Below, one piece after another: positions 11,158 through 42,600 of a DNA stretch of 64,000 nt (the first letter of the stretch is position 1; each line of letters begins with the position of its first letter). Below the pieces are notes generated by a model, which ran no database searches, was not told where the DNA came from, and saw only the letters and a list, made by a program, of their open reading frames with translations. Both the position numbers and the translations under genes were made by a program. The stretch is from Thunnus maccoyii (taxonomy: Eukaryota; Chordata; Actinopteri; Scombriformes; Scombridae): contig NC_056554.1 of NCBI RefSeq assembly GCF_910596095.1, forward strand, positions 1,550,001-1,614,000, in the 5' to 3' direction.

Positions 11158-14100
11158 TCAGGTGGTTTGGAGAGTTGAGGGTGTGGATCTCTGGGGGTCT
11201 GAACAAGGGGTCATCAGTTCTAAGGGAGTGGAGGAGATGGTACAGATGGACGAGAAGTACTGAGGCTCCTCTTCACAATTTTCTTCGCTCAGTGTCAGTT
11301 CGTTGAGATTGACACCTTCCAGCTCTGCATACTGCACACCAGCGAAGAGCCTGATCACCGCACGGACCTGGGGAACCTGCAGGAGAGTCTCCTTGAAGGT
11401 GATGAGCACCACCAGGCCCACCAGCAGGTAACCTGTGGAGAGAGGAGGACAAGATTTGGTATGGTTTGGTGATTCTGGTATTAACAAGATGTAATTTAGT
11501 CTCAATATCACGGAAAATTTACAAAATATATATTTAAACAGTTAAAGGGGAAGTCAATTGATTTTTAACATCAGTGTGTGCTCCAGGTGTTGGGGACGAC
11601 TACTACATATATATAAAAAAGTAATATAAAGCAGCGTCGGCTGGGGCTGAAGACTACAAGTTTGAAAACGAAACAAATCCGGGAGTGTGGAGTTAGAAAG
11701 AAGTGAGGTTAGCAGACCTCTGTAGCTCCTCATCTCTGCTGGAGGCTAGCAGCTCCAGGCTACATTAGCCGCTACTAGCATAACACACCACAATCTCCAG
11801 CCAAACTGTACCAGGTTTTGACAAGGAAGAAGAATGTGTAGAAACTGTCCATCATGCATCTGACAGTGTTGCAGTATATAAGTGCAATACTCCTTTAAAT
11901 TAATATATAAAATTATGTGAAAACAGTAGCTTTTTTGTCACAACTGTCTTAGCTTGGTGGGTTGTGTAGGGGGAAGTTTACTAAAATCCGGACTTTCATG
12001 TAATTCACTTGAGTCTCATTTGTGGTAATGTTTCTGTCTTACAGTCCTGTCACATCTAAATGATAACATGAAGCTAAAAAAAGTCTTAGCTGTGATTTCT
12101 CTGTTAAAGCTGCATTAATATGTTTGTTGCCACACTAGGTCAGGCCTCCACAACAAGCAAAACATCCACACACATCAGACATATTATGGCCTTATATTGT
12201 AAAAGGTGTTCCAGTGAACATGTTAGCAAACAGTTGCCTATTTATACATCCAGCAGACACAGAGCGACATTAGCATTCATTTGGAGTCATGCTTGTATCC
12301 ACCTGATGAATGTGAGTCCAATATTCACTCTCATTTTAACGATCGGTTATATATATCTGTCTCTTCAGCTGCTAAACACTCCTCTGTGTTCATCACCTAG
12401 TCTCTAACTGTGTCTGTCTGCTGTTTGGTGCTGAGCAGGTATTGGGTTTATCAGAAAACAGATGCTGCTCCTGCTGGAAACAAGGGTAGTAGTTGTGAAG
12501 TGAACCACAACACTGTGGGCTGTAAAGCCAAAACAATGAGCTAAAAGAGGCTAAAAAAGTGCCACAGAGTTGAGGGGAACTGCAGAGTCGGTGATAATTT
12601 TTTTCAGGTTTACCAGTATGAGTGACACCTTTCATATCACACATAGGAATTTAATTCATTGTTAATATAAAAAAGACAATGCAGCCTTAAAGTCAAACAT
12701 AAACACCAGCTTGGATTTATTGGTAATCACAGGGCATCAGAGAAAAAAAAAATAGAAAAGGTACCATTATTCAGAGGATCCAGCCCTTGAATTGGGACAT
12801 AGATGAATAGTCCCTCTGGTTGTCTGGGAAACTTCCCCCACAACCACAGCACAATCACCTGTCCCAGTGGGAGATCCCTCTATGACCTGATTTCTTCCAT
12901 TCTCTCTCTAAAAACACAGCTTTTCTTTTTAAACATAAGTACATGCTGGTCTATTTACTTTTCACCATCCTCTATATGTTGGGAAAATGTCACTAGTTTC
13001 TGCATTTCTTTCTAATTGAATTAAATTTAGAAGTAAACATTTCTCAAGAGATCAGGTGAATGCTGTTGCCTTCTTTTAACTCACTTCACAAAGCCTTGAA
13101 CTGAAATATCTCTGTTCAGTGTGTTACTTCCATTATAACAGTATAATAAACATAATATCATGCATACTATAAAGGCTGTCTAGGCACATACACCTGCATC
13201 ACTAGTTACTGACATCATTCCACTTACATGTGGTGAGGAGATTGAGTGTCTCCTTGGCCGCTGGGCTCCAGCTTCTCCCCACAGAGTTTCCTCCCTGACC
13301 GACGGTGCTCAGGATGAGAAAGCAGAAGAAGAGAGCGTCCAGGAAGCTCCACTCCGGCTCCACCACACACACCAGGAGAGCGGGGAGAAGGAAAAGGAGG
13401 GATACGACCAGCACTGAGAGGAGGGTGGCGTGGATGATGGTGGCCCGGGTGTAGGGCAGGGCCCAGTGAGTGTGTAGATGGTGCACAGGGGCATCGGTGA
13501 GGACGGGGAGGAGGAGGTTGGAGAGGAGGGTGAGGAGGAACAGGGTGAGGGGGATCCCCAGGGTGCAGTAGAAGATACAGAAGAGCTTGGCTTCATCTGA
13601 TTTGGGAGTGTAAGAGTCAGAACCTGAGGAAGAAGAGAGGAAGAGGTCTGCAGGAGGACGTGGAACCACTGAGGAGTTTGACAAACACATGACAGTCCCC
13701 TACAAATGCACTAAACTAACATTTTAATCAGCGAGCTTTACAGGTGTTGTAGGTGTATTTCTGAACTTTGGACAGAGTCAGGCTAGCTGTTTCCCTCTGT
13801 TTCCAGTCTTTATGCTAAGCTAGGCTAACCACATCCACAAACATCCTTTAAGTGCAGTGCTTGAGTTTCTTAGTTACTTTCCACCACTGCTAACAGACGT
13901 TGGGGTGAAAATGTTTAAAGTTTTATTTACTCTTATCAACTACCGTTTTACCAAAGAGAACTAAGGCCACATACAATATACTTAATGGTTTTCTATTTTG
14001 TATCTTTGTACATCTAAGTTTTTGGACTGTTGATCAGACGTAGCCTTGAGTTCTGGTAAAGTGTGATTAACATTATCACAATTTTCTGGCGTTTTCTAGA

Positions 14101-14551
14101 CAAAAACAATAAATCAGTGAATCTGGAAAATAATGACAGATTAACTGATGATGAAAGTAATGGTTATATGCAGCCCTGTTTCATTCATTTAGACATTTCT
14201 GCACTGTATCTCACCCATGGTGGTCAGAGTAACAATCACAAAGTAGAGCGACGAGGTGAAGTCATAGTCGCTCTCGTCAGCATCAGCCTTCAGAACGGCT
14301 ACATCACTCTGGTGAGCAGAGAGAACTTTCTCCAGCAGCTCACTCAGCCTGCGCTCCCGCACGCAGGGGTTCTCCTGCAGGAAGAGGCGACGCAGCTCCT
14401 CCACCTCCACTTTCAGCTCCTTCTCCACCGGCATCTCCACCGCTGTGAACACCAGACCTCCCAGCACGACAAAGAGGATGTAGCTGAGAAGCAGGAAGGT
14501 AAACGCATTGATCTGGCACAACAGCCCCAGTGAAGACATGAGCTGGGCCAT
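11158..14551 (-). CDS. kcnk7: Two-pore-domain potassium channel subunit, KCNK7-like
   Basis: Three coding exons: 14551-14215, 13623-13228 and 11432-11158 (337+396+275 bp, 335 aa). All introns are GT-AG and in phase 1, and the first intron splits the P1 glycine codon as in other KCNK genes. TM1 is about residues 15-40. The extracellular cap follows, with a Cys (ENPCV) matching the TWIK cap cysteine. P1 ends DFTSSLYFVIVTLTTMG, then M2 about 124-150, M3 about 171-200, P2 with LSTVGQGG near 217-224, and M4 from about 240. The closest family by eye is TWIK/KCNK7: LLPVL, LLPAL and GYLL/CYLL-VGL...ETLLQVPQVRA match human KCNK7, and ehbp1l1 lies next to it as in humans. Oddity: filter 1 reads TTMGSDS instead of TxGYG, and filter 2 is GQG. 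It would act as a dimer in a membrane, but conduction is doubtful. It could be a diverged kcnk1/6 paralogue. Confidence 0.85.
11546..11894. mobile_element. Probable TTAA-flanked MITE in kcnk7 intron 2
   Basis: A 349-bp non-coding block flanked on both sides by TTAA (11542-11545 and 11895-11898). It starts AGGGGAAGTC and ends CAATACTCCT, which is a weak inverted match. TTAA target duplications are typical of piggyBac-type elements. It lies inside the intron between kcnk7 exons 2 and 3. The similarity of the ends is modest, so the call is tentative. Confidence 0.5.
12103..12690. repeat. Dispersed repeat family A, copy 3, in kcnk7 intron 2
   Basis: The best-preserved copy of family A. The ends look inverted: TTAAAGCTGCATTAATATG on the left and ATGCAGCCTTAAAGT on the right. 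The interior matches the copies near 2.2 kb and 7.0 kb. Non-coding. Confidence 0.6.
13740..13832. mobile_element. Family B palindromic element fragment in kcnk7 intron 1
   Basis: Contains 'ccagtctttatgctaagc' and 'aggctaacca', preceded by 'cagagtcaggctagctgttt', like the right half of the element at 5769-6161. Truncated. Confidence 0.65.
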
Positions 14552-20024: not shown

Positions 20025-23000
20025 GCGCTCACCAGAAGATGTGGCTGAGTAGCAGGGCTGCGTAGTCTCGGAGGGTCCAGTGGTCGTTGAGCGGGTTGAT
20101 GGAGGCTGCCAGAGGCTCCAGGATGCAGTACATGACACTAGAGACCAGGCTACGCACGTACGAGCCCAGGTACAGGTAGGGGTTCTGGACCAGGCTCTTC
20201 ACCATGTGGAGGAGTCTGTTGAGCTGCTCCAGGTCGTGGCTGACTGACTTCACCTGGACAGAAACAACACAGGGATGAAATGCAACCAGATGTGTGGTGT
20301 GTGAAAGTAAAAATCCACTAGTAAAGAAGGCTGATTTTCTAATTGAAGACATTCAAGGATTATAAGGAATATCTTTAAAATGTAACTGTGAAATCTGAAA
20401 ACACGATATTTGCACATTTTCCATGTAAAAGTGAATAAATGGGAAATGTTTTGCATGTTGTAGAAGATGTGATGTGTGGGTAGCCTACCCCGCTGATGAC
20501 GTAAACAAAGTATGGCAGCAGCGCAGCGATTTTGGAGTTGGACTGGAGGTCCAGCAGAGCCACCTGAGATACACACACACACACAGCACAGATGTTAACA
20601 CACACACCATGCAGCCACACAGCACGCTGGCCTGTATTCAGCCTGCCAGTTTACCTTCATGAGGTGGGGGTCTTCTCCCAGGATGGCCCGCGTGATCTGC
20701 TGGTAGTACTTCAACAGGTCATCTGACAGCGACTGTACTGCAGTGGGAACTGTGACGATGCAACAGGTCAGGTCAGACAACCAAAGTCTGTTTTATCAAC
20801 AGGTGTCTCTCATTTAAACATTATTGCATGCTTTGGATACAATCAAGGGGATTCAAGGTGAAAATTAGGGCTGCAACTAAAAATTACTTTCATTATCCAT
20901 TAATCTGTCAATTAATGGATTAGTTGTTTGGTCTATTAAATATCAGAAAATGGTGAAAAATGCATATCAATGTTTCCCAAAGTCCAAGATGACTTCCTCA
21001 AATGTCTTATTTTATCCACAACCAAAAGATATTCAGTTTACTGTCATAGAGGACTAAAGAAACCAGAAAAAAAGCTGGAATCTGAGAATTTGGATTTTTT
21101 TTTTTCTTAAAAATGATTCAAAATGATTTATCAATGATCAAAATAGCTGGCAATTTATTTAATAGTTGACAAGTAATTGATTAATCGTTGCAGCTCTAGT
21201 GACCATAGTCATGTTAAGCTGCAAACCACTTGACCCAGTATCAAGCTTTCAAAGCACAAGTATGCAAGTACGCAAGATGTTTTGAGTCACATGACCAGCC
21301 CAAATGAGGCCTTGTTACGTCACACTAACATCAGAGAGGTGTTTAAAAAAAGTCATAAGCCTTTTTTCCCTCTAATTGTCAAGTGTATTTTCAGCAAACT
21401 TTTGAAATGTTGCAAAAATGAAAAAAAGAAAAAAGAAAAAGTGAACTAGGCGCGTTTCCATCAACTGGTTTGGAGCGAATAAACTAGGCTACGCTAGGTT
21501 TTCATCAGAAGTTGGTGGTATCGTCTACGTTATGCATGGCAAGAGGAAAATGGAGACAGGTCTTCAGGAATTTGTTTCAATTTGGCAAGTTGTCATTGTT
21601 CTTTCATGTCAGCTAGTATTGGTTGCTTAGTTGCTACTACTAGCCATGTTTTGGCGCGTTATGGGAATATCCAGGAAGATGCCCACAGTGGAAACAGCTG
21701 ATCAGTCACGTGAGTTAAAAGTTTGCTACGTCAGAACTTATTCAAAAAAGGTGTTTCAATCTCTCATTTAACACATCAACTGTTTTTTTGAAAAAGACAA
21801 AAAATCACCTCGAGCTAATGTAAAAACGTTTTTGCGAAACTGAGGAAGTTCTTTTTTAATTTTGCCGTTTCCATCAACCTTTTCTGATGCGATACTTCAA
21901 AATGTGCATAAAAATATGTTGATGGAAACACAGCAATAGACTCTGTTTGAAAAAGTGATTCATTTTTATAATTTGACAAGTTGCAATATGAACCAAATCA
22001 AATTTTAAAAAGCATTTTAAATATTCAAATTTAAAGTCTTCCTCTATATTTTGTGTTGCACAGAGTCCTGCCAGTGAATCACCAGTGTGATTGTCAGATT
22101 ATTAATACATCTTCCATTAATTGGTCAACGTTGACCAACGTTCTACTTGAATACATTTGAGAATGTGCACCGGCATGACAAGTTTGAACATCACCTATTG
22201 CTTCACAAGTGAGGGAAGCTGTGGGGATGGGTGCAGGTTGGGCACTGAAACAAAACTGAACTGGATTCAGAGCAGTCGGCATGTATCAGGTACAAGTCTT
22301 GTGACGCTTCAGCCGTCATGTCAACCTACTGGTAAATGAATTTTATGTTTACTCTGCAGCTAGCTAGATAGTTATGTGGCAGTATGTGTTTTATTACAGT
22401 AGTTATAGATATGCTTTGGAGTTTCTGACCTCTACTACTGCAGTGGGGCAGTTATTTTATGAGTGAGTCCTCTTTTTGTTGCACAATCACTGGCTTCATG
22501 CTATTCCACTGATCTACAAGTGGCTGTAACGTGCCAAGAGACGTGGCAATGTGCCAGCAAATGCAGAGAAGAAGAAGATCGCAAGCTAGTAAACATGGAC
22601 ATAAACACTGCAGGGTGTAAAATATATTTGACAAATCAGCTTTTGAAATGTTATATGATGAAGGAAACGCATTCATCACCTTCAGTAGACCTCAATGATG
22701 ATAGTTAATGGGTATTAACATTAGTTACAATGTTGTGATGAATATATATCATGTTAATGCAAGTCATATGGACATTGCTGTTGCTGTGACACACTAACCT
22801 GCTCCCTGAGGTTCCAGGTTACCTTTTCCATCCAGGTACGACACATTCACTGACGGGACAAGAACACAGGAGAAACATTAGTAAAAGATACCTCTCTATT
22901 CAAAGAGCTGAAACATGGGCTTTGAGCATTAAGGATACATCTGTCTGTAGTTTGTGACAGCGTGGTGGGTCGTACCTCGCACCATGGTCTCAGCACAGCC

Positions 23001-23615
23001 CTTGGGAATGTTGGTGGCCAGAGCCAACTCAACTAGGTTGATGTCTCGCTCCTCAGTGAAGAAAAGCTCACCTTCTTTCACTGAGCGGAAAGGCAGAGCA
23101 TCTTGAGCCCCATAGCCACAGATAGCCTGGTGAACACAGGGAGATAAAGATGTGATTTTTTTGACTGGGAGGGACCACTGATAGGAACATCGAAGTAGAA
23201 TTTCAAGTCACCTCCACGTTGCTCCAGCGCAGAGCTCTGTTGAAGCCCTCTACTGTCAGCTTCCTCCTCTTGGCATGTCTCATGAACTGAGAGCTGCTCT
23301 GTGTGGTTTCAAAATAAAACACAGACACCTCACCATCAATACTACACATTCACACATCATGATAGTACATATCTGTCCTTTGAGTATGGAACAAGGTGAC
23401 TGCGGCCTTTCATGTGATACATTTTTGGAAAGGGTGTCACTGTTAAGTTTCAACCCGGCAGCACTGACCTGCGTTGCCTCCCTGAGCCGGTAACACACGT
23501 CTTCAGCCAGCAGACCGGCCACATCGTCGCCGAGCTCAACGCCTGCACTCTCGGCCATGAGTTTCACGGACTCCCGGGAAATTTCGGCGAAGCGGCGCTC
23601 CTCCCGGTCCGCCAT
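17591..23615 (-). CDS. taf6l: TAF6-like RNA polymerase II p300/CBP-associated factor subunit (PAF65-alpha)
   Basis: Eleven coding exons: 23615-23469, 23298-23212, 23126-22976, 22849-22799, 20749-20655, 20563-20489, 20253-20033, 19787-19655, 19272-19144, 18531-18035 and 17930-17591. They total 1926 bp, 641 aa; human is about 622 aa. All introns are GT-AG with matching phases. The start at 23615 gives MADREERRFAEIS; a frame start six bases upstream is GTG and is not used. Residues about 5-75 form the TAF6-type histone fold (LLAEDVCYRLREATQ, KRRKLTVEGFNRALRW). Residues about 170-370 form the HEAT-like TAF6 C-terminal domain (HDLEQLNRLL, LNDHWTLRDYAALLLSHIFW). A Pro/Ser-rich linker follows, then a conserved Arg-rich end (GRRCQGR, RRWACSHYSLHLPL). 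It is a scaffold subunit of SAGA/PCAF histone acetyltransferase complexes. CA or TG repeats abut several of its splice sites. Confidence 0.97.
19281..19325 (+). repeat. (AC)n microsatellite upstream of a taf6l acceptor
   Basis: About 22 AC units. In taf6l pre-mRNA this is a UG repeat beginning about 8 nt upstream of the exon 9 acceptor (exon 19272-19144). Confidence 0.95.
19975..20022 (+). repeat. (TG)n microsatellite downstream of a taf6l donor
   Basis: About 24 TG units. In taf6l pre-mRNA this is a CA repeat starting about 10 nt after the exon 7 donor (exon ends at 20033). Confidence 0.95.
20868..21198 (+). mobile_element. Repeat family C element in taf6l intron 4
   Basis: Starts 'gggctgcaactaaaaatta' and ends 'gattaatcgttgcagctc', so the ends are inverted (GGCTGCAACTA / TTGCAGCTC). 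The interior has 'aagtccaagatgacttcctc' and 'ttcagtttactgtcatagag'. I recognise it as one of the commonest percomorph interspersed repeats. Other copies are at 52956-53276, 53850-54038 and 56447-56640, with fragments at 16105-16330, 34120-34230 and 59500-59570. Confidence 0.75.
21451..21932. mobile_element. Inverted-repeat element with 'GTTTCCATCAAC' ends, in taf6l intron 4
   Basis: Left end 'gcgtttccatcaac' at about 21453 and right end 'gttgatggaaacac' at about 21919. A second internal copy, 'cgtttccatcaacc', lies near 21867. The roughly 480 bp contain no coding frame. Non-autonomous DNA element; boundaries approximate. Confidence 0.6.
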
Positions 23616-23960
23616 GCTCACGGCGACTACTTAGGAAACAGCGAAGAAAAAGCACCTTACATAAACATTTATACTCTAACATCTTCTCACACAAAAAGAC
23701 AGCATGACTGTAATAACGAGCAGCGTGTTAAAGCTACGATTTTATTAAAATTGAGAGGTGCATGGTGGATCAACTGTATCCCGAATTTACCCGAAGACAT
23801 ATTTGATTCGTTAAACATCTTGACTTCTGATATATCCGTTATGTATCAGTGATGACAAGCCAATAAGTCCTAAACTACCATATTTTTGAGTGGGCTTTGG
23901 CGAATGTAGCTACCCGGGGCCAGCATGCTAACAAAATACATTCTGGGTTCGGTCTATCAG
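23616..23960 (-). promoter_or_regulatory. taf6l 5' leader and promoter region
   Basis: Sequence immediately upstream of the taf6l ATG. It contains a few CpG sites close to the start codon (GGTCCGCCATG, CGGCGACTAC), then becomes AT-rich. The transcription start cannot be placed by eye. Confidence 0.35.
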
Positions 23961-26557: not shown

Positions 26558-28768
26558 TTACAGCACCCTGTTGTCCCAGATCTCCTGGGCCTTGCTGCTC
26601 TCCAGCTGCTGCAGGTGGAGGGCCAGCGGCAGCAGCAGGTCGCTCAGGTGCTGACTGGAGAAGGTGAAAGCGTTGTGGGCTGTAGCCTCTGCAGGCAGGG
26701 TAGTGAGAGGGGAGGTTGAGGGAGGAGATGACGAGGTTGAGGGAGGAGAGGACGAGGTCGAGGAGTTTGGCGAGGTGGAGGTGAACGGGGAGGTAGGGGA
26801 AGGTAAACCTGAACTACCTGGCTGAGGGTAGAAGAGGTTCCCTTGGCTCTGGTCTGAGGTTTTGATCTTGCTGGGGAGGCCGTGCTGGAAGCGACAGCGT
26901 GTGCCGTACAGGCAGAAACCAAAAGCGCTGAATGTGCGACACAGAGCTCCACGTGGCTTCCACTCCTTGGTCTGTGGTTGCAGCTGGGGGGTGGGAGCAG
27001 TTGGAGTCTTCTCACCATCATCAGACGACTCCACACTGCTGTTGACGTCTCCACCCTCGACGTGCAGGAAGTTACAACGGTTGCCAAAGGGACAAACCCC
27101 AAAGGAGCGGAAGGTGCGGCAGGGGAAGTTCCTCCTGCGGCGGAGAGCGGGGCGCTGCTCGGTGGGATTGTGGACGAACAGGCAGCGGCTGCCGTAGTAG
27201 CAGTAGCCGGTGGTGTGGTAGCTGCGACACAACTCAGTCTTGTACTTGGGGTGGCGGAAGGGAACGTGGAGCTCATGGAGGCCGTGAGCGAACTGACAAC
27301 GCTCAGCATACTTGCAGAAACCAGTTGCCGAGTAGGTGGTGCAGAGCTCCGTCTTGTAGCGGGTGGAGCAGGGGACGAGGGGACGGGATGAGGACTCTAC
27401 CAGGGGGAGCAGAGCCTTAGCCAGAGAAAGGCCACCTCCATCTGACTCCTCACTGGACAGCAGGTTGTCCACCAGCTCCTCATCTTGGTACGGAGGCAGA
27501 TACAAGTCGTCGCTACCGGTCTGGAAGACAAAGTGTAGTTAGTTGAGCAGGTCATCATGAAGCCCCCTCCTCTCCCTGCAGCTGGCCTGTCCCACAAACT
27601 ATAGGAGTACCTGAACAGTATATAGAGATAGTTCCTTTCTGGCAGTGTTAAATAACTACATGTTATACTTTTGTTTAATCCATGCACAAACCCATTGTAT
27701 AAAAACACAATTTGCGTTCATTTCTTTACTGGGAGCAGTGACTTCCTGAGTCTCTGCAGGTTGCCTGAACAGCTCAGGAACTGCTAAGAGCCAATGGCTT
27801 TGCACATATTAAACACAGGAGATACAGTCAGGCTAGCATTTTCCCCCTGTTTTAAGTCTTTATGCTAAGCTAATGGGCTGCTGGTGGTAGATTTACAATT
27901 GCCAGACGAATGAGAACGACCACCATGAACACTGTGCAACCTCTACCTGGATCTGTTGAGACTCAAGCATTGGAGGAAATACTTTTGTTGTGTTAGAAGA
28001 CAGGTGAGCAGTGGACTGGAGGAAAAGCAGAGGATCACCTAAAAAAGGTAAACTGTTGAGCTGGTGGACACAGTAGGGCCAGTCTGAGCTAGTTCTGCCG
28101 AGACTGAACCTTATGTTTGTCAGTCATTCTCTCATATGACCTTTAGTTTCTGGTTTTAAATGTTTCATGAAAGATGTTAAGTGTTTTAGGCTCTTGTTCA
28201 TTTAAAAACAACAAATGTAACAATACTCCACATAATGGAGAAAAAAAGATGTATGCATATTGTTGAAGGTGCATTTTCACCATTACACAATCATTTGCTA
28301 GAGAGCTTAAAAAAAAAAAAAAAGAAGAAGTAAACTTGTGAAATAAGAAATGCAGAACAATTTTTTTTGAGTGGGTTAATTTTGACAGACTTATTCTGTG
28401 AGAACAAGTCACAGTAGGTTTTAAGACTACTAAACTTTCAATTAGATACTATACTCCCAAAAAAAAAAAAAAGATGATCATAAGACATCTTAGGTTGTTT
28501 TGACCAGCCAACAGTCCAAAACCCAGCGCAATAAGAACAGCAAACACTGACTTTTGACAAGATGGAACCAACAAATCAAATTGATTTTTATTTTAACCAC
28601 TAATCAATTTAGTGGCCAATCATCCCAGTGCATGACCAGTACAAATACTGCAAAGCTGGGTTTGACTCCCAGTCGTGCCACTCGTGCTGTAAACAGCATT
28701 TGTAACATTAATAAGCAAAAACTAAATGAATGTAAAACAGTATGAAACAGCTGACTTACCTCAAACAT
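26558..28768 (-). CDS. cth1: CCCH zinc-finger RNA-binding protein, TIS11 family, four fingers (CTH1-like)
   Basis: Two coding exons: 28768-28760 (only MFE) and 27520-26558, giving 972 bp and 323 aa. The donor GTAAGT and acceptor CAG join in phase 0 as MFE-TGSDD. There are four CCCH fingers, each C-x8-C-x5-C-x3-H. Fingers 1 and 2 are the classic TIS11 tandem pair with YKTELC leads ([40 protein letters not shown]). Fingers 3 and 4 ([40 protein letters not shown]) are diverged copies; a Ser/Asp/Pro linker separates 3 from 4. The C-terminal part is Ser/Pro/Thr-rich. TIS11 proteins bind AU-rich elements in mRNA 3' ends and recruit deadenylases. From memory, a four-finger TIS11 member called CTH1 is known from carp and zebrafish oocytes and embryos. 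The C3H pairing is certain; the orthology is likely. Confidence 0.87.
27725..27905. mobile_element. Family B palindromic element fragment in the cth1 intron
   Basis: Includes 'gggagcagtgacttcctgag', 'ctctgcaggttgcctgaaca' and 'agtctttatgctaagctaat', which match the centre and right half of the family B repeat. Located in the intron between cth1 exons 1 and 2. Confidence 0.65.
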
Positions 28769-36628: not shown

Positions 36629-39600
36629 ATACTGACGCTGTCGAAGCCTCTCTTCCCCAGCAGGCTTTGGCCCCCACGAGGCTGGCTGGCCTGGTTCCTG
36701 TTGATGGGTGTTGGGGGTCCTCTGGACGCCTTCAGTTTCAGAGGAGCTGATATGGCTGCAGAGAGGACACAACGACACTCCTCACCATCCAATCACACTT
36801 CAGAGAGAACGGATTAGCAGATATAGCAGTCTGGGAGTTCTCACCTAAATCCTTCACTATGGTGGCCAGTGACTGTCGAGGCACCACCTTGCTCTTTACA
36901 TTAGTTTTTGTAGCTTTGGGCAGCCGGATCATACCTGAAGAGACAGACAGCGAATCAAACATGTGAAGCAACAGATATCAGTCTGTCAAACAACTGACTG
37001 ATACTGGCCTTTCATTTAAAGGCAGTTCATGTGTGTAAGTGTGTGTACATACACTCAGCCTTGACGGCGTTGGCGTTGATGGAGGCGTAGGGCCGTCGTG
37101 CGGCGCGGCGCGGCTGCAGGATGTCCTCGCACACCCGCCGAGCGATGCGGGTCAGCTTGGTGGTCTGCAGGATGAACGTCTGGCGGTTCTTGGCCAGCAG
37201 CTTGGCTCGACCCTCGTTGCGAGTGAACGGTGACATGCCCTGGACCTCCTGGCGGGTCATGTGACCGCGGGGGCCTGACTCCTGGTCAGAGAGGAAGAAT
37301 GTAGCTATAGTGAATAGCTCATGGTTGATTTCTGTACTGTTTTAGACTTAGATATTGAAAGTCGCATCTAAAAAGATCAGATCAAAATGTGAGGGAGGAG
37401 ACATACAGAGCCAGCTCTAGCAGCGCCCTCTAGCTGTGTGGGGGTCTTCAGGCCTCCGTACTTCTTCCAGTAGATCCAGCAGGAGGCGCACAGTCTGCAC
37501 TGCATGTTGGGAGGGCCCCAGGCGTACCACTGAGGTGACTGGGCCGCTGGGTTGGTGACAGGACATTCAGAGAGTTAATACAAATGGACCTTTTAGAGTC
37601 AATACAGACAATAGAGTCAAACATCCTAGTTGCTGTTTTGGGTGAGGTTATGGGTTAAGATTCCTGCAGTGGACAAAATGCTCTAAAATTTCTGTTTTAA
37701 TATCAGTACTGAAACTCAGTGCTGTCAGACAAATAGTAATTTTTTCTCTCAAACTTCCTCTGCAGTCAAATCCAGAGTGAAAGCAGACTTCAGACTGTAC
37801 TTACTGTGGCAGCTCTCACAGCTGAGTCCTTTCTGAAAGCCTGCGGCTCCGTTCATCCCCGGCTTGCTGCCCGGCACCATGATCTGATTGGGGTTGGGTT
37901 TGGTGCTGGTGAGAGAAGGGGAGCGTGAGAAGAAGAAGAAGAAGAAGGTGAGGCAGTTGTTTTGAGTCATTCTAACTCAAAGAGAAGTATTCAGTGTTGC
38001 AGGAGACAGTAATACTCACTAGGTGGGGATGTACACCTGCTTCAGCTTGCTGTCTGCCTCTGCTGCCTTCAGTCGTTTCTGAAAGAGAGAAACCATAGAG
38101 ATGAGCAGTAAGTAGCAAATGGGACAATGCTGTTGTGTATTTTGTGGCTTGCTGTGTGTGTGTGTGTGTGTGTATTTACCTGTTGGATGTAGCGATCTGT
38201 AGTCTTCCACATGTAGTAGAACTGGACCACACTGGCTAGAGACTTCCAGGGCAGCTGAGGAAGAAGAAACAAAAATATATTTAAACTAGAATTCCACATG
38301 CAGTTCTGTTGCTACTGATGGTTCTATTTGAAAATGATCATAAGGCAGTGGAGAGACAACATATCCTCATATATAAAAGAAAGCAGAGAAGAAGAGCTTA
38401 CAAAGTCCTGGCGGATGTCATTGAAGTCCTTGCCGTATTTCTCCAGAGCCTCTTCGAACAGCATGGCCTCGGAGGCGCTCCACTCCTCCATCTCGTCGCG
38501 GCAGAGCACCGGACCCCCCTGAGGCACCAGGGTGGACATGGCTTTGGCCAGGTCATAGTTGTTCTTCTGCAACGTGTCCATAGCGTGGAACTAAGAGCAG
38601 AGAGAGAGGAGAGGTGGAACAGAAGAGCTTCGTCATCACAGATTCTCTCGCACGACCATGTAGCCTGTCAGGAACACTACACCAGTACACATGTCTTCAA
38701 ACTAGCTTTGACACAGGGCACAAGATTATATAATAAAGCAATAATTCAAGCAAAAATATAACTATGCAAATACATGTCAGTAGGCTTACATTTAAATGCT
38801 TGGTTTGGATTGTTTACAGAGTTTGAGAGCTGTAGAGCAGTTTTAGAACCCATCACTGTATCCTCTATGAACAAGTAGGGTGGACATCACTTACCACTCA
38901 AAGGGAACAACACTGTCTTGTTTTATTTATAAAGCCATCCTAAATAAGCTACTATTTTATTTATCATCACTTTTTAGACTGTTCTCGTTCACAAGGATGC
39001 ATTATCTTGGATATCCCGTACAGTTTTAGCTCCAGTGCAGTGCATCTTTTATGTTAAACACTACAATGTCCCAATAAATAAATACAACCAATCAGAAGTG
39101 TAGAAAAACTGCATTCACCTATTATGCTCCTCAGAAGTGGAAAAAGCTTCAAGACTCCCTTAAATTAGACACATTTTTATCCCTTGAACAGTTCTGACTA
39201 CTTTGTCCCTTTGTAATGTAATGTATAAAGTCTATCTGTCTAGTGTGTGTATGTGTGTGTGTGTGTGTCTCACCAGTGTGATGTCTCTGGAGGCTGCAGC
39301 TGCACTCATATGGAGGCTGGGCTGGCGAATGGAGCTGCTGCAGTCCAGGGCCCGAGCAAAAGTCCCCACAGCCCTGGAACACACATGGAACTGTTACTGG
39401 AAGTCATGACACATGACTTCTCACCAGATATACAGACGTGTGTTTGTGATGGACATCAGACATAATAATATCCCCCAGAAAGTGTGAGTCACACTCAATC
39501 TAAAAATCTGTTTATCATGTCTTTGTGTTCAGATTTGACTGAGTTATGAGTGAATAGGATTTTTTGTGTATTGCTGATTTTTCATTAAATGGCCACTAGA

Positions 39601-42600
39601 TGGAGTGTTTGTGCTGTTGGAGCAGTTCATAGGCAGCAGGAGGATTCCCTCCAAAAGAAAACTTTACATGGATTTACAAAAAAATTTTAAAAAATCATTA
39701 CACTACTGCTGCACCATCATTCCACTGCTATACTGTAGTGTTAAATGTGCATTCTAATACATTTCTGCCTAACAGTATATGCATGTATACATTATGAATA
39801 TATATATAATGTGTTGGATATGCCTCTGTTAATTGCAATCAGCTGATCCTCTTTGGAACACCATGAAAAAATAATTTCCTTTCATAAGAAATTATTGAGC
39901 TTGTTCCTCCAGAAAACCTTCCCTGCTGATGGTAGAGTCACAAGTCACCATGGCAACAGGATGTGATGATGATGCAACTGGTTGACAGATGGAAGGGGAG
40001 CGTTACCTTGCTACCACCAGGAACTGGTCGATCTGAGGGTCTTTGAGCTGGTTGTTGGGGTCCCACACCTTGGTCTCCAGCTTCTCCTGGATCCGGTTGT
40101 CTGATTCACCTGAGACACAAAAGGAAGTGGGTTCAACTTAGGACGTTTTACTAGTAGAAAATGCTCAAATAGCAACTGAAATCTGGAAACATTTGTTTTC
40201 CTGGTATCTGAAACTTTCAGTGTGCTGCTCACCCTCAGCTAGCTTGTCAGGGATCTCCGCCTGATACTTGGAGCCCACTCGGATCTCTCCCTGGTCTGCC
40301 AGCAGGGTCTTCTGGACCGGGTCAAACACCAGCGAGTAGAAGAAACAATCCTGGACAGAACATAGAGAAAAAACATTACAGCTGCTTGCCAAGTGCTTTG
40401 TGATTGTTCAATTCACCAACAGTGTGAAATAGTTAAAAAAAAAAAAAAAAAAGGGAGTAAATGCACCCCATCGTGATGAGTTGATGAGAAATGAACAGAT
40501 GGCATCTTACCTCTTTCTCTAGGTAGCCGGCCAAGACATCTGTTTCATTGAGGAGGGTGACATTACATTTCCCCCTGGAGAGACAGCGAGGAGCATTCAG
40601 AGACCAGTATGACAAAGATGTACAGACTCTACAGTCCCACAAGGTACAAATAGGAGTTCAAATCAAGTTATTTTAGACAGTCCATGCTTGCAAACACAGT
40701 CTGTGCATCCATTACTGGATGAATAACAAAACACCAAACAATATAATACTATGACCATGAACTTAACAGTACCTCTCAACTAAAAAAAATATAGTAGATG
40801 TGTCAAAAAGGCAGTGTTAACTTGATGTATTATATTATACCAGAAGGTGTTCTTGTCACTGTGTCCACCCCCAGCAGAAATGAGGGGATACTGATGGGAT
40901 TGTAATGTAGCACAGCACCTAACCAAACCTATTCATTTCATTCAAACCTCAGATTCATCTGTATGATGTGTCATGTTCACGTGTTCTACATTTTGTAAGG
41001 ACTGGGCATTACATGGCCAAACTTTGCTGATAAATAGTGTTTTATCAAATGTAACTACAAACACTGTGACTTCAGACTCACTGGCTGCGTTCCAAGTTAG
41101 ATACAAACTGGTCAACAAACTAAAAGCCCTGAGAAACAACTGTTTTGTACATGGTTGAAATGTGGTGGTCCAGCTGAGAGAAGTGTAATATAATACATCA
41201 TTTTTTAGACTATCTATTGGTGGAAATGTGTTTTAATACATTATTCACTATTATTATGATGATTTGGATCTTTTTTTTTTCCACAAGCAAATGTGACACA
41301 CCTCTCGATTTCTTTCAGATTAAAGGGGCACTCCATCAATTGTACACATTAAGATGTGTTTACTTGTCATGAGGGCTACTAGTAGAATATCTATGATGCT
41401 GTATATATATATATATAATGTCTACACATCATCACAGAGAGTCAAACTGTTACAAACTGGAGCTGTGGAGTTTGAAAGACATGGAATGAAAGACGCTATT
41501 GACTTGTATTATGGAATTGTAGGATCCAGCAATTTTGGAACTTGGCCAATACTTTTTCCACAATTTTTTTTATTGTTGTTTATCTGTCTCTTTCAAGTCC
41601 CAAAACTGTAACACTCGAGCCCTGCAGTGTTCTATGAGAGACACGTGTGTGTGTTAAAAAGGGATGGGTTTTTCCCAGAAAGTTCAACACAAGACGATTG
41701 TGCCGACCTCAGAATTTTAATGTGACTGTGCTGCTGAGAGATAAGTCAAGTGCACAGAGTAAAGGCCTGTACCTGTCTTTTGAACAGTTTTGACCTTCAG
41801 TAGCAGACTGAATACTAAACCAAAAATGTCTCAGAAATCTAACTACATTTGGGGGAGTTTCACAACTCTAACTATAGTGTGGTCAGCATGAGGTCCTTTT
41901 GATGATTGCTATGGTATAGTTGTGGTGTTGTTGCACCTGACGCCGACAGTGATGTCACAGGGATGGCTTGAGAACGGTTAAATGTACATGACAGGTGTCT
42001 GGCTTCAAACCAGCTATCTTTGGTCTTAACTCAGGTGTTCCAGCATCACAAAACTGGCTCTATTATCGGGTTAGATCACCACAGTGATAAAATAAACTAA
42101 AAAAAGTAGGAAATAAACACTAAATTAGAAAAATAATCCACAGTGTTAATTAGCTCCCTCATCAACCATTCAATTATTTTCCTCCTCCTCGCTCCTCTCG
42201 GTGGAATTGCTCTTACTTTGTGTGCATCACATCTTTATAATAGTTTGTTCATTATGAGACAACAAAGTAAAAACATTCTTTAATACTGTTGATAACTCTG
42301 CTCCTTTCATGTGAGCTGTGTCGTAGCTGGAGGGTAAAGTCCAGAGTTAACTGAGACTGAGTTGACTTTGTATCAGCGTAGTATCAGCAGCTGCTGTTAG
42401 TAAAAAGACGTACCGTATGTGAGTAGCAGGAAGAGATTCGAACTGTCGAGAGAGGAAGAGTTCTCTGTGTTTGAGCTGGTGTTTCTGTTGTTCAGACAGC
42501 GACGGCTGCTTCGACTCCTCCTCGAACTCTCCTAAAAAAAAAACAAAAAAAAAAAACACACATAGGCATCAGCACTGGTTTTCTACTGACGTGACAAAAC

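Follow-up and report, generated by a model that had tools for sequence, protein, structure and literature searches.

The window, a stretch of 64 kb (C22:1550001-1614000 of a genome of 782,140,779 bases in 54 contigs), carries on its minus strand a complete three-exon gene for a TWIK-type K2P channel subunit of 335 amino acids, located at positions 14551-11158 and referred to here as kcnk7. Exon 1 (14215..14551, minus strand, as are all features of the gene) is an open frame that matches KCNK1 by both tblastn and phmmer and ends at the GT donor GTGAGATA. It contains the start codon (A at -3, G at +4), M1, the cap (the M1-P1 linker) with C63, the P1 pore helix, TTM, and the first base of the G113 codon. 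Intron 1 (13624..14214) is a phase-1 GT-AG intron lying within the first P1 glycine codon. Exon 2 (13228..13623), bounded by an acceptor that ends CTTCCTCAG and the GT donor GTAAGTGG, is an open frame with a KCNK1 match and encodes the remainder of P1, M2, M3 and P2. A second phase-1 GT-AG intron (11433..13227) separates it from exon 3 (11158..11432), which follows an AG acceptor and holds, in an open frame, M4 (CYLLVGLVVLITF, matching M4 of KCNK1), the cytosolic tail and a TGA stop. The preliminary description had placed its feature at 13228..14215; the junction coordinates were right, and that span covers only the end of exon 1, intron 1 and exon 2.

The encoded protein has unusual selectivity filters. 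The exon 1-2 junction splits the G113 codon as G|GT, with TCT GAC (SD) following, and the splice from 14215 to 13623 predicts G joined to GTTCTGAC. The first filter thus reads GSD where GYG is usual (13616..13623, which spans S114, D115 and the two closing bases of the G113 codon). The second, STVGQGG at residues 218-224 (13289..13309), stands for STIGLGD and continues with NS. The potassium signature TxG[YFL]G is therefore missing from both loops, which read TMGSD and TVGQG. By comparison, the genome's other three TWIK genes have filters of GYG / GLG, and in all three the first intron interrupts the codon of the first P1 glycine after one base. In those genes, the next exon continues TAT GG. 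to complete GYG, whereas kcnk7 has TCT GAC. The second intron is likewise phase 1 in the three paralogue gene models, so that both introns are common to all of them. Four AG acceptors in the right phase for exon 2 (first bases 13668, 13647, 13623 and 13596) were found across intron 1 and exon 2, none of which restores G[YFL]G, and the motif [ST][TI]xG[YFL]G is absent from all six frames of the window. The claims that conserved phase-1 sites splitting the P1 glycine codon fix this splice, that P1 joins as TTMG-SDSYTPKSD with GSD at residues 113-115, and that P2 is STVGQGG all agree with the spliced 335-residue frame and with the paralogues.

The spliced protein aligns to human KCNK1 (3ukm) with an E-value of 9.8e-57 by phmmer, over query residues 16-274, P1 and P2 included, without a gap, in keeping with the gapless TWIK alignment proposed earlier. 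KCNK1 is its best match in the PDB, followed by KCNK6. The Ion_trans_2 domain is matched twice, at 72.9 bits versus a cut-off of 22.5, and hydrophobic peaks at residues 20-38, 128-146, 182-200 and 239-257 bear out the earlier statement that the frame and all four membrane helices are kept. In an Ion_trans_2 scan of the genome, in which 150 of 169 candidates were scored, at least 114 matches were obtained. None of these fell on kcnk7, which is weak evidence because the scan reads exon by exon. The other TWIK genes of the genome lie on C14 (79% identical to human KCNK1), C20 (60% to KCNK1) and C6 (53% to KCNK6), as measured over 248 shared columns. In that same core, kcnk7 is 37-38% identical to KCNK1 and the C14 and C20 paralogues; its identity to the three fish paralogues together is 35-38%. 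A protein search for a second copy of kcnk7 in the genome found none (40 of 40 first-look candidates scored, yielding 37 matches, three of them the exons of kcnk7 itself). Pattern searches for relatives in the genome_contigs and viral_contigs sets gave 95 and 16 matches, respectively, with 0 confirmed. To judge from its sequence, this is a genuine coding gene that evolves fast, the fourth TWIK-type K2P gene in this genome. Its protein has no N-glycosylation sequon; the fish TWIK paralogues have one, two and two.

The filters were also compared with those at 27 other loci of the genome, using reads aligned at E<1e-3. P1 read GYG in 11 cases, GFG in six and GED in one (17/18 GYG or GFG), and P2 read GFG in 14 and GLG in three (17/17). 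A single gene accounts for two of these loci (L030 and L031), not every locus yielded a read, and the survey is not a genome census because the loci were chosen by their similarity to kcnk7. The single GED proved to be an artefact, produced where exon 1 of the C20 gene was read on into its intron. Among the matches listed from the open-access literature, as far as their available passages go, none was about the filters of fish kcnk7; the altered motif may already be known to curators.

Neighbouring genes and the name kcnk7

Two further genes in the window lie on the same strand as kcnk7. Exons encoding TAF and TAF6_C domains at 20032-23630 are read as taf6l, and exons encoding MTA_R1 and ELM2 domains at 37030-40407 are read as mta2; both are tentative labels that come from the domains. 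Between them, at 26561-27538 (minus strand), a single open frame encodes four CCCH zinc fingers (PF00642), versus two in ZFP36/TTP. Teleost cth1 is a four-finger relative. The name cth1 also occurs in connection with PMC3546996. Rfam gave 0 matches in the window. In a passage of PMC9471012, zebrafish kcnk7 on chromosome 7 is grouped with mta2, taf6l and eml3, all with orthologues on human chromosome 11. Since taf6l and mta2 match this list, the gene in the window is evidently the kcnk7 of fish annotators.

Whether that gene is also the orthologue of mammalian KCNK7 is disputed. The human chromosome 11 orthologue assigned to zebrafish kcnk7 (PMC9471012, in part) speaks for it. Against this, passages of PMC3711925 state that the genes given this name in fish have quite different syntenic surroundings and probably arose by independent duplication, and orthologues of human KCNK7 are traced only as far as mammals in PMC13183375 (in part). 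In a tree of seven rows, with a provisional sequence in the human KCNK7 row, enforcing a clade of kcnk7 and mammalian KCNK7 gave a p-AU of 0.346. The best tree joined kcnk7 and the C20 gene, a weakly supported grouping (62/44) in which both had long branches, that of kcnk7 being the longest in the tree at 2.37. Identity to human KCNK7, again using the provisional sequence, is 33%. The C20 gene (L040, C20:10250500-10259000; 60% to human KCNK1) has the residues ELPQMR after M4, close to QVPQVRA of kcnk7. Human KCNK7 presumably carries ELPQVRA at this place, close to ELPQMR of the C20 gene, and the stretch may be an old TWIK feature rather than a mark of KCNK7.

The preliminary description had contrasted this gene with mammalian KCNK7, in which the second filter was said to be altered and the first was not. 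That both filters are non-canonical here stands; the contrast itself presumes an orthology that the papers dispute and that the p-AU above leaves undecided. Because of this dispute, the mammalian gene serves as an analogy and not as an established before-and-after comparison. Likewise, short of a proper tree, the fish name kcnk7 provides no basis for transferring findings on mammalian KCNK7. The same reserve applies to published expression data on genes so named: one is reported to be expressed in hair cells of the zebrafish (PMC11524865, in part), and another to be lowered in the Campylomormyrus electric organ (PMC10897887, in part).

Constraint across the protein

The reading frame of kcnk7 is free of stops and frame breaks and its splice sites are intact, and its GC3 of 0.73 resembles that of the working paralogues (0.67, 0.68 and 0.74), versus a GC content of 0.36 in the flanks. 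When neutral drift of a kcnk1a-like coding sequence was simulated to 37% identity over its whole length, a mean of 9.1 stops accumulated, with three or more in 50 of 50 runs. The intact frame therefore argues for constraint over most of the history of kcnk7, and a recent loss of function may still be compatible with it. The cysteine at C63 (codon 14363..14365), which aligns with the cap cysteine C69 of TWIK1, is invariant in all six TWIK rows compared.

These rows (kcnk7, the C14, C20 and C6 genes, human KCNK1 and human KCNK6) were aligned over a core of 248 columns, in which 76 positions are invariant among the five sequences other than kcnk7. Of these, kcnk7 keeps 47 (62%) and has lost 29. 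As a control, positions invariant among four of the five other rows were determined, and the fifth row was scored on them beside kcnk7. The fifth row kept 76/76 when it was C14, 76/92 for C20, 76/89 for C6, 76/78 for human KCNK1 and 76/88 for human KCNK6, versus 47, 51, 52, 47 and 53, respectively, for kcnk7 on the same sets. Since kcnk7 keeps fewer than each control row, the whole protein is fast-evolving.

The losses had been expected to be specific to the filters, and three groupings show no significant excess there. The filter residues proper are kept in 5/9 cases versus 42/67 elsewhere (p=0.47), the filters with their outer mouths in 6/14 versus 41/62 (p=0.096), and the filters with mouths of equal reach in 8/17 versus 39/59 (p=0.13). 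Within the filters, the lower residues T111, G113, T219 and G221 are all kept (4/4), versus one (G223) of the five upper residues Y114, G115, L222, G223 and D224; the p-value of 0.040 for this difference comes from few positions and a grouping picked after looking.

Possible roles of a subunit with two altered filters

The explanation that is narrowly favoured on the sequence evidence is that kcnk7 encodes a fast-evolving TWIK-type subunit that would carry no ordinary potassium current alone and would act through the current or traffic of a K2P partner. The sequence retains the two-pore layout with its four helices, the cap cysteine, the placement of both introns, and the lower threonine and glycine of each loop. 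In a homodimer with GSD and GQG, the usual four-site potassium filter presumably could not form, so that no ordinary potassium current would be expected from the protein alone. It would dimerise through its cap, either as a homodimer or together with a different K2P subunit, and the dimer could then lower or change the current or surface traffic of the partner, as silent TASK-5 does. Precedents come from other K2P subunits. For example, KCNK7, KCNK12 and KCNK15 are called silent K2P subunits in a passage of PMC8616229, and mammalian KCNK7 is reported to form covalent dimers (PMC4906011, in part; the same passages give C69 as the cap cysteine of TWIK1) and to be located mainly in the ER (PMC5428834, in part). 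The TASK-5 homodimer is likewise silent, and TASK-5 can pair with TASK-1 and TASK-3, whose expression at the cell surface it reduces; its filter variant G95E acts as a dominant negative (PMC11364637, in part).

Several observations count against a partner role, including the missing N-glycosylation sequon noted above. The cap cysteine is reportedly dispensable for most K2P currents (PMC4726246, in part), and the Kcnk7 knockout mouse is described as showing no obvious phenotype (PMC8616229, in part). Passages of the latter source also treat it as an open question whether such silent subunits truly do not conduct or are channels without their cofactor. In addition, the loss of invariant positions is spread over the protein and so does not distinguish a partner role from simple relaxation. 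The earlier suggestion of selection for a non-conducting partner or trafficking subunit is supported in part: neither filter is canonical, although the gene is intact and its four hydrophobic helices are kept, and its likeliest reading is a partner role. The spread-out loss lends no support to the proposed selection, and the accompanying contrast to KCNK7 presumes orthology.

Relaxation of constraint over the whole channel, with the filters merely two of the places lost by a gene on its way to becoming a pseudogene, is considered unlikely. The loss of 29 of 76 otherwise invariant positions, with fewer kept than in each control row, the longest branch in the tree and the lack of any excess loss in the filter itself are what such decay would leave behind. 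On the other hand, the unbroken frame and splice sites, the GC3 of a working paralogue, the four hydrophobic helices and the cap cysteine are not, and simulated drift to the same distance leaves stops.

Loss of the potassium signature is not equal to loss of conduction, and kcnk7 might instead encode a conducting channel of altered selectivity, whose pore, in a homodimer or mixed dimer, would be a NaK-like filter with two sites and no selectivity among cations. The NaK filter TVGDGN is described as having only sites S3 and S4 and being non-selective, and as becoming potassium-selective upon its change to TVGYGD (PMC9822992, in part). TVGQG of the second loop resembles the TVGDG of that channel, and the threonines and glycines of the lower filter are the very residues retained in kcnk7, subject to the few positions and post hoc grouping behind that p-value. 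Because TxG is present in both loops with a polar residue (S or Q) at the tyrosine site, a sodium leak is possible. The P1-M2 piece also scores 36.8 bits with chain 2q69, versus 26.0 (10.8 less) for the corresponding piece of the kcnk1a-like paralogue; this chain, labelled 'Potassium channel protein', is taken here to be wild-type NaK. However, the same piece scores higher with K2P chains (46.0 bits for KCNK3 and 42.6 for KCNK1), and the P2-M4 piece reaches 51.3 bits with KCNK1 versus at most 14.4 (E 0.41) with NaK chains. The combination of TxG, a non-aromatic tyrosine site and the next glycine is complete in P2; P1 has D115 at the glycine of NaK, a misfit with a NaK-like turn, and the protein is fast-evolving throughout. 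An altered-selectivity channel is thus judged decidedly unlikely, and its stronger form, a vertebrate K2P turned into a depolarising leak that passes both sodium and potassium as a dimer or a mixed dimer with TWIK, is more doubtful still. UNC-58 was considered as a precedent for a sodium-passing K2P and was set aside, as the passages at hand lack that statement.

A subunit that helps to pass potassium in mixed dimers, its altered loops being tolerated beside the two usual loops of a TWIK partner, is very improbable, given that the G95E filter variant of TASK-5 is reported as dominant-negative (PMC11364637, in part) and that both loops are altered in kcnk7. Finally, although the gene is known from one assembly and from genomic sequence alone, it is barely credible that the altered filters are an artefact of base errors, of an unseen exon or of RNA editing that restores a usual filter, as eight separate in-frame changes affect both loops and their mouths (Y114S, G115D, T117Y, L120K, L222Q, D224G, V226S and P227V) and no acceptor in intron 1 or exon 2, nor any motif in six frames of the window, was found that could supply G[YFL]G.

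Returning to the partner role, experimenters commonly use EYG filter mutants as a tool in K2P pairing tests (PMC11364637, in part). With both filters unfit for potassium and the channel plan kept, kcnk7 would be a natural case of a subunit whose very make-up renders potassium conduction on its own unlikely. A phenotype would therefore suggest either that it acts through a partner or that its selectivity is altered.

Comparison with known channels

TWIK1/KCNK1 and the C14 and C20 paralogues share with kcnk7 the two-pore, four-helix plan, the cap cysteine, and the positions and phases of both introns. They differ from it in their filters, which read TTGYG and TIGLG versus GSD and GQG. Bacillus cereus NaK resembles kcnk7 in keeping TxG with a polar tyrosine site, but it is a two-helix tetramer and not a K2P channel, and P1 of kcnk7 is without the second glycine.

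Mammalian KCNK7 (TWIK3), like kcnk7, is a TWIK-type subunit with an altered filter. The original cloning paper is said to give GYG for P1 and GLE for P2 of the human protein, and it is in P1 that the fish gene would differ. Mammalian KCNK7 is itself silent on expression (PMC8616229, in part). TASK-5/KCNK15 is silent alone, serves as a model for the partner role, and has a filter variant of its own; unlike kcnk7, it belongs to another K2P subfamily, and its filter is commonly GYG, the G95E change being a polymorphism.
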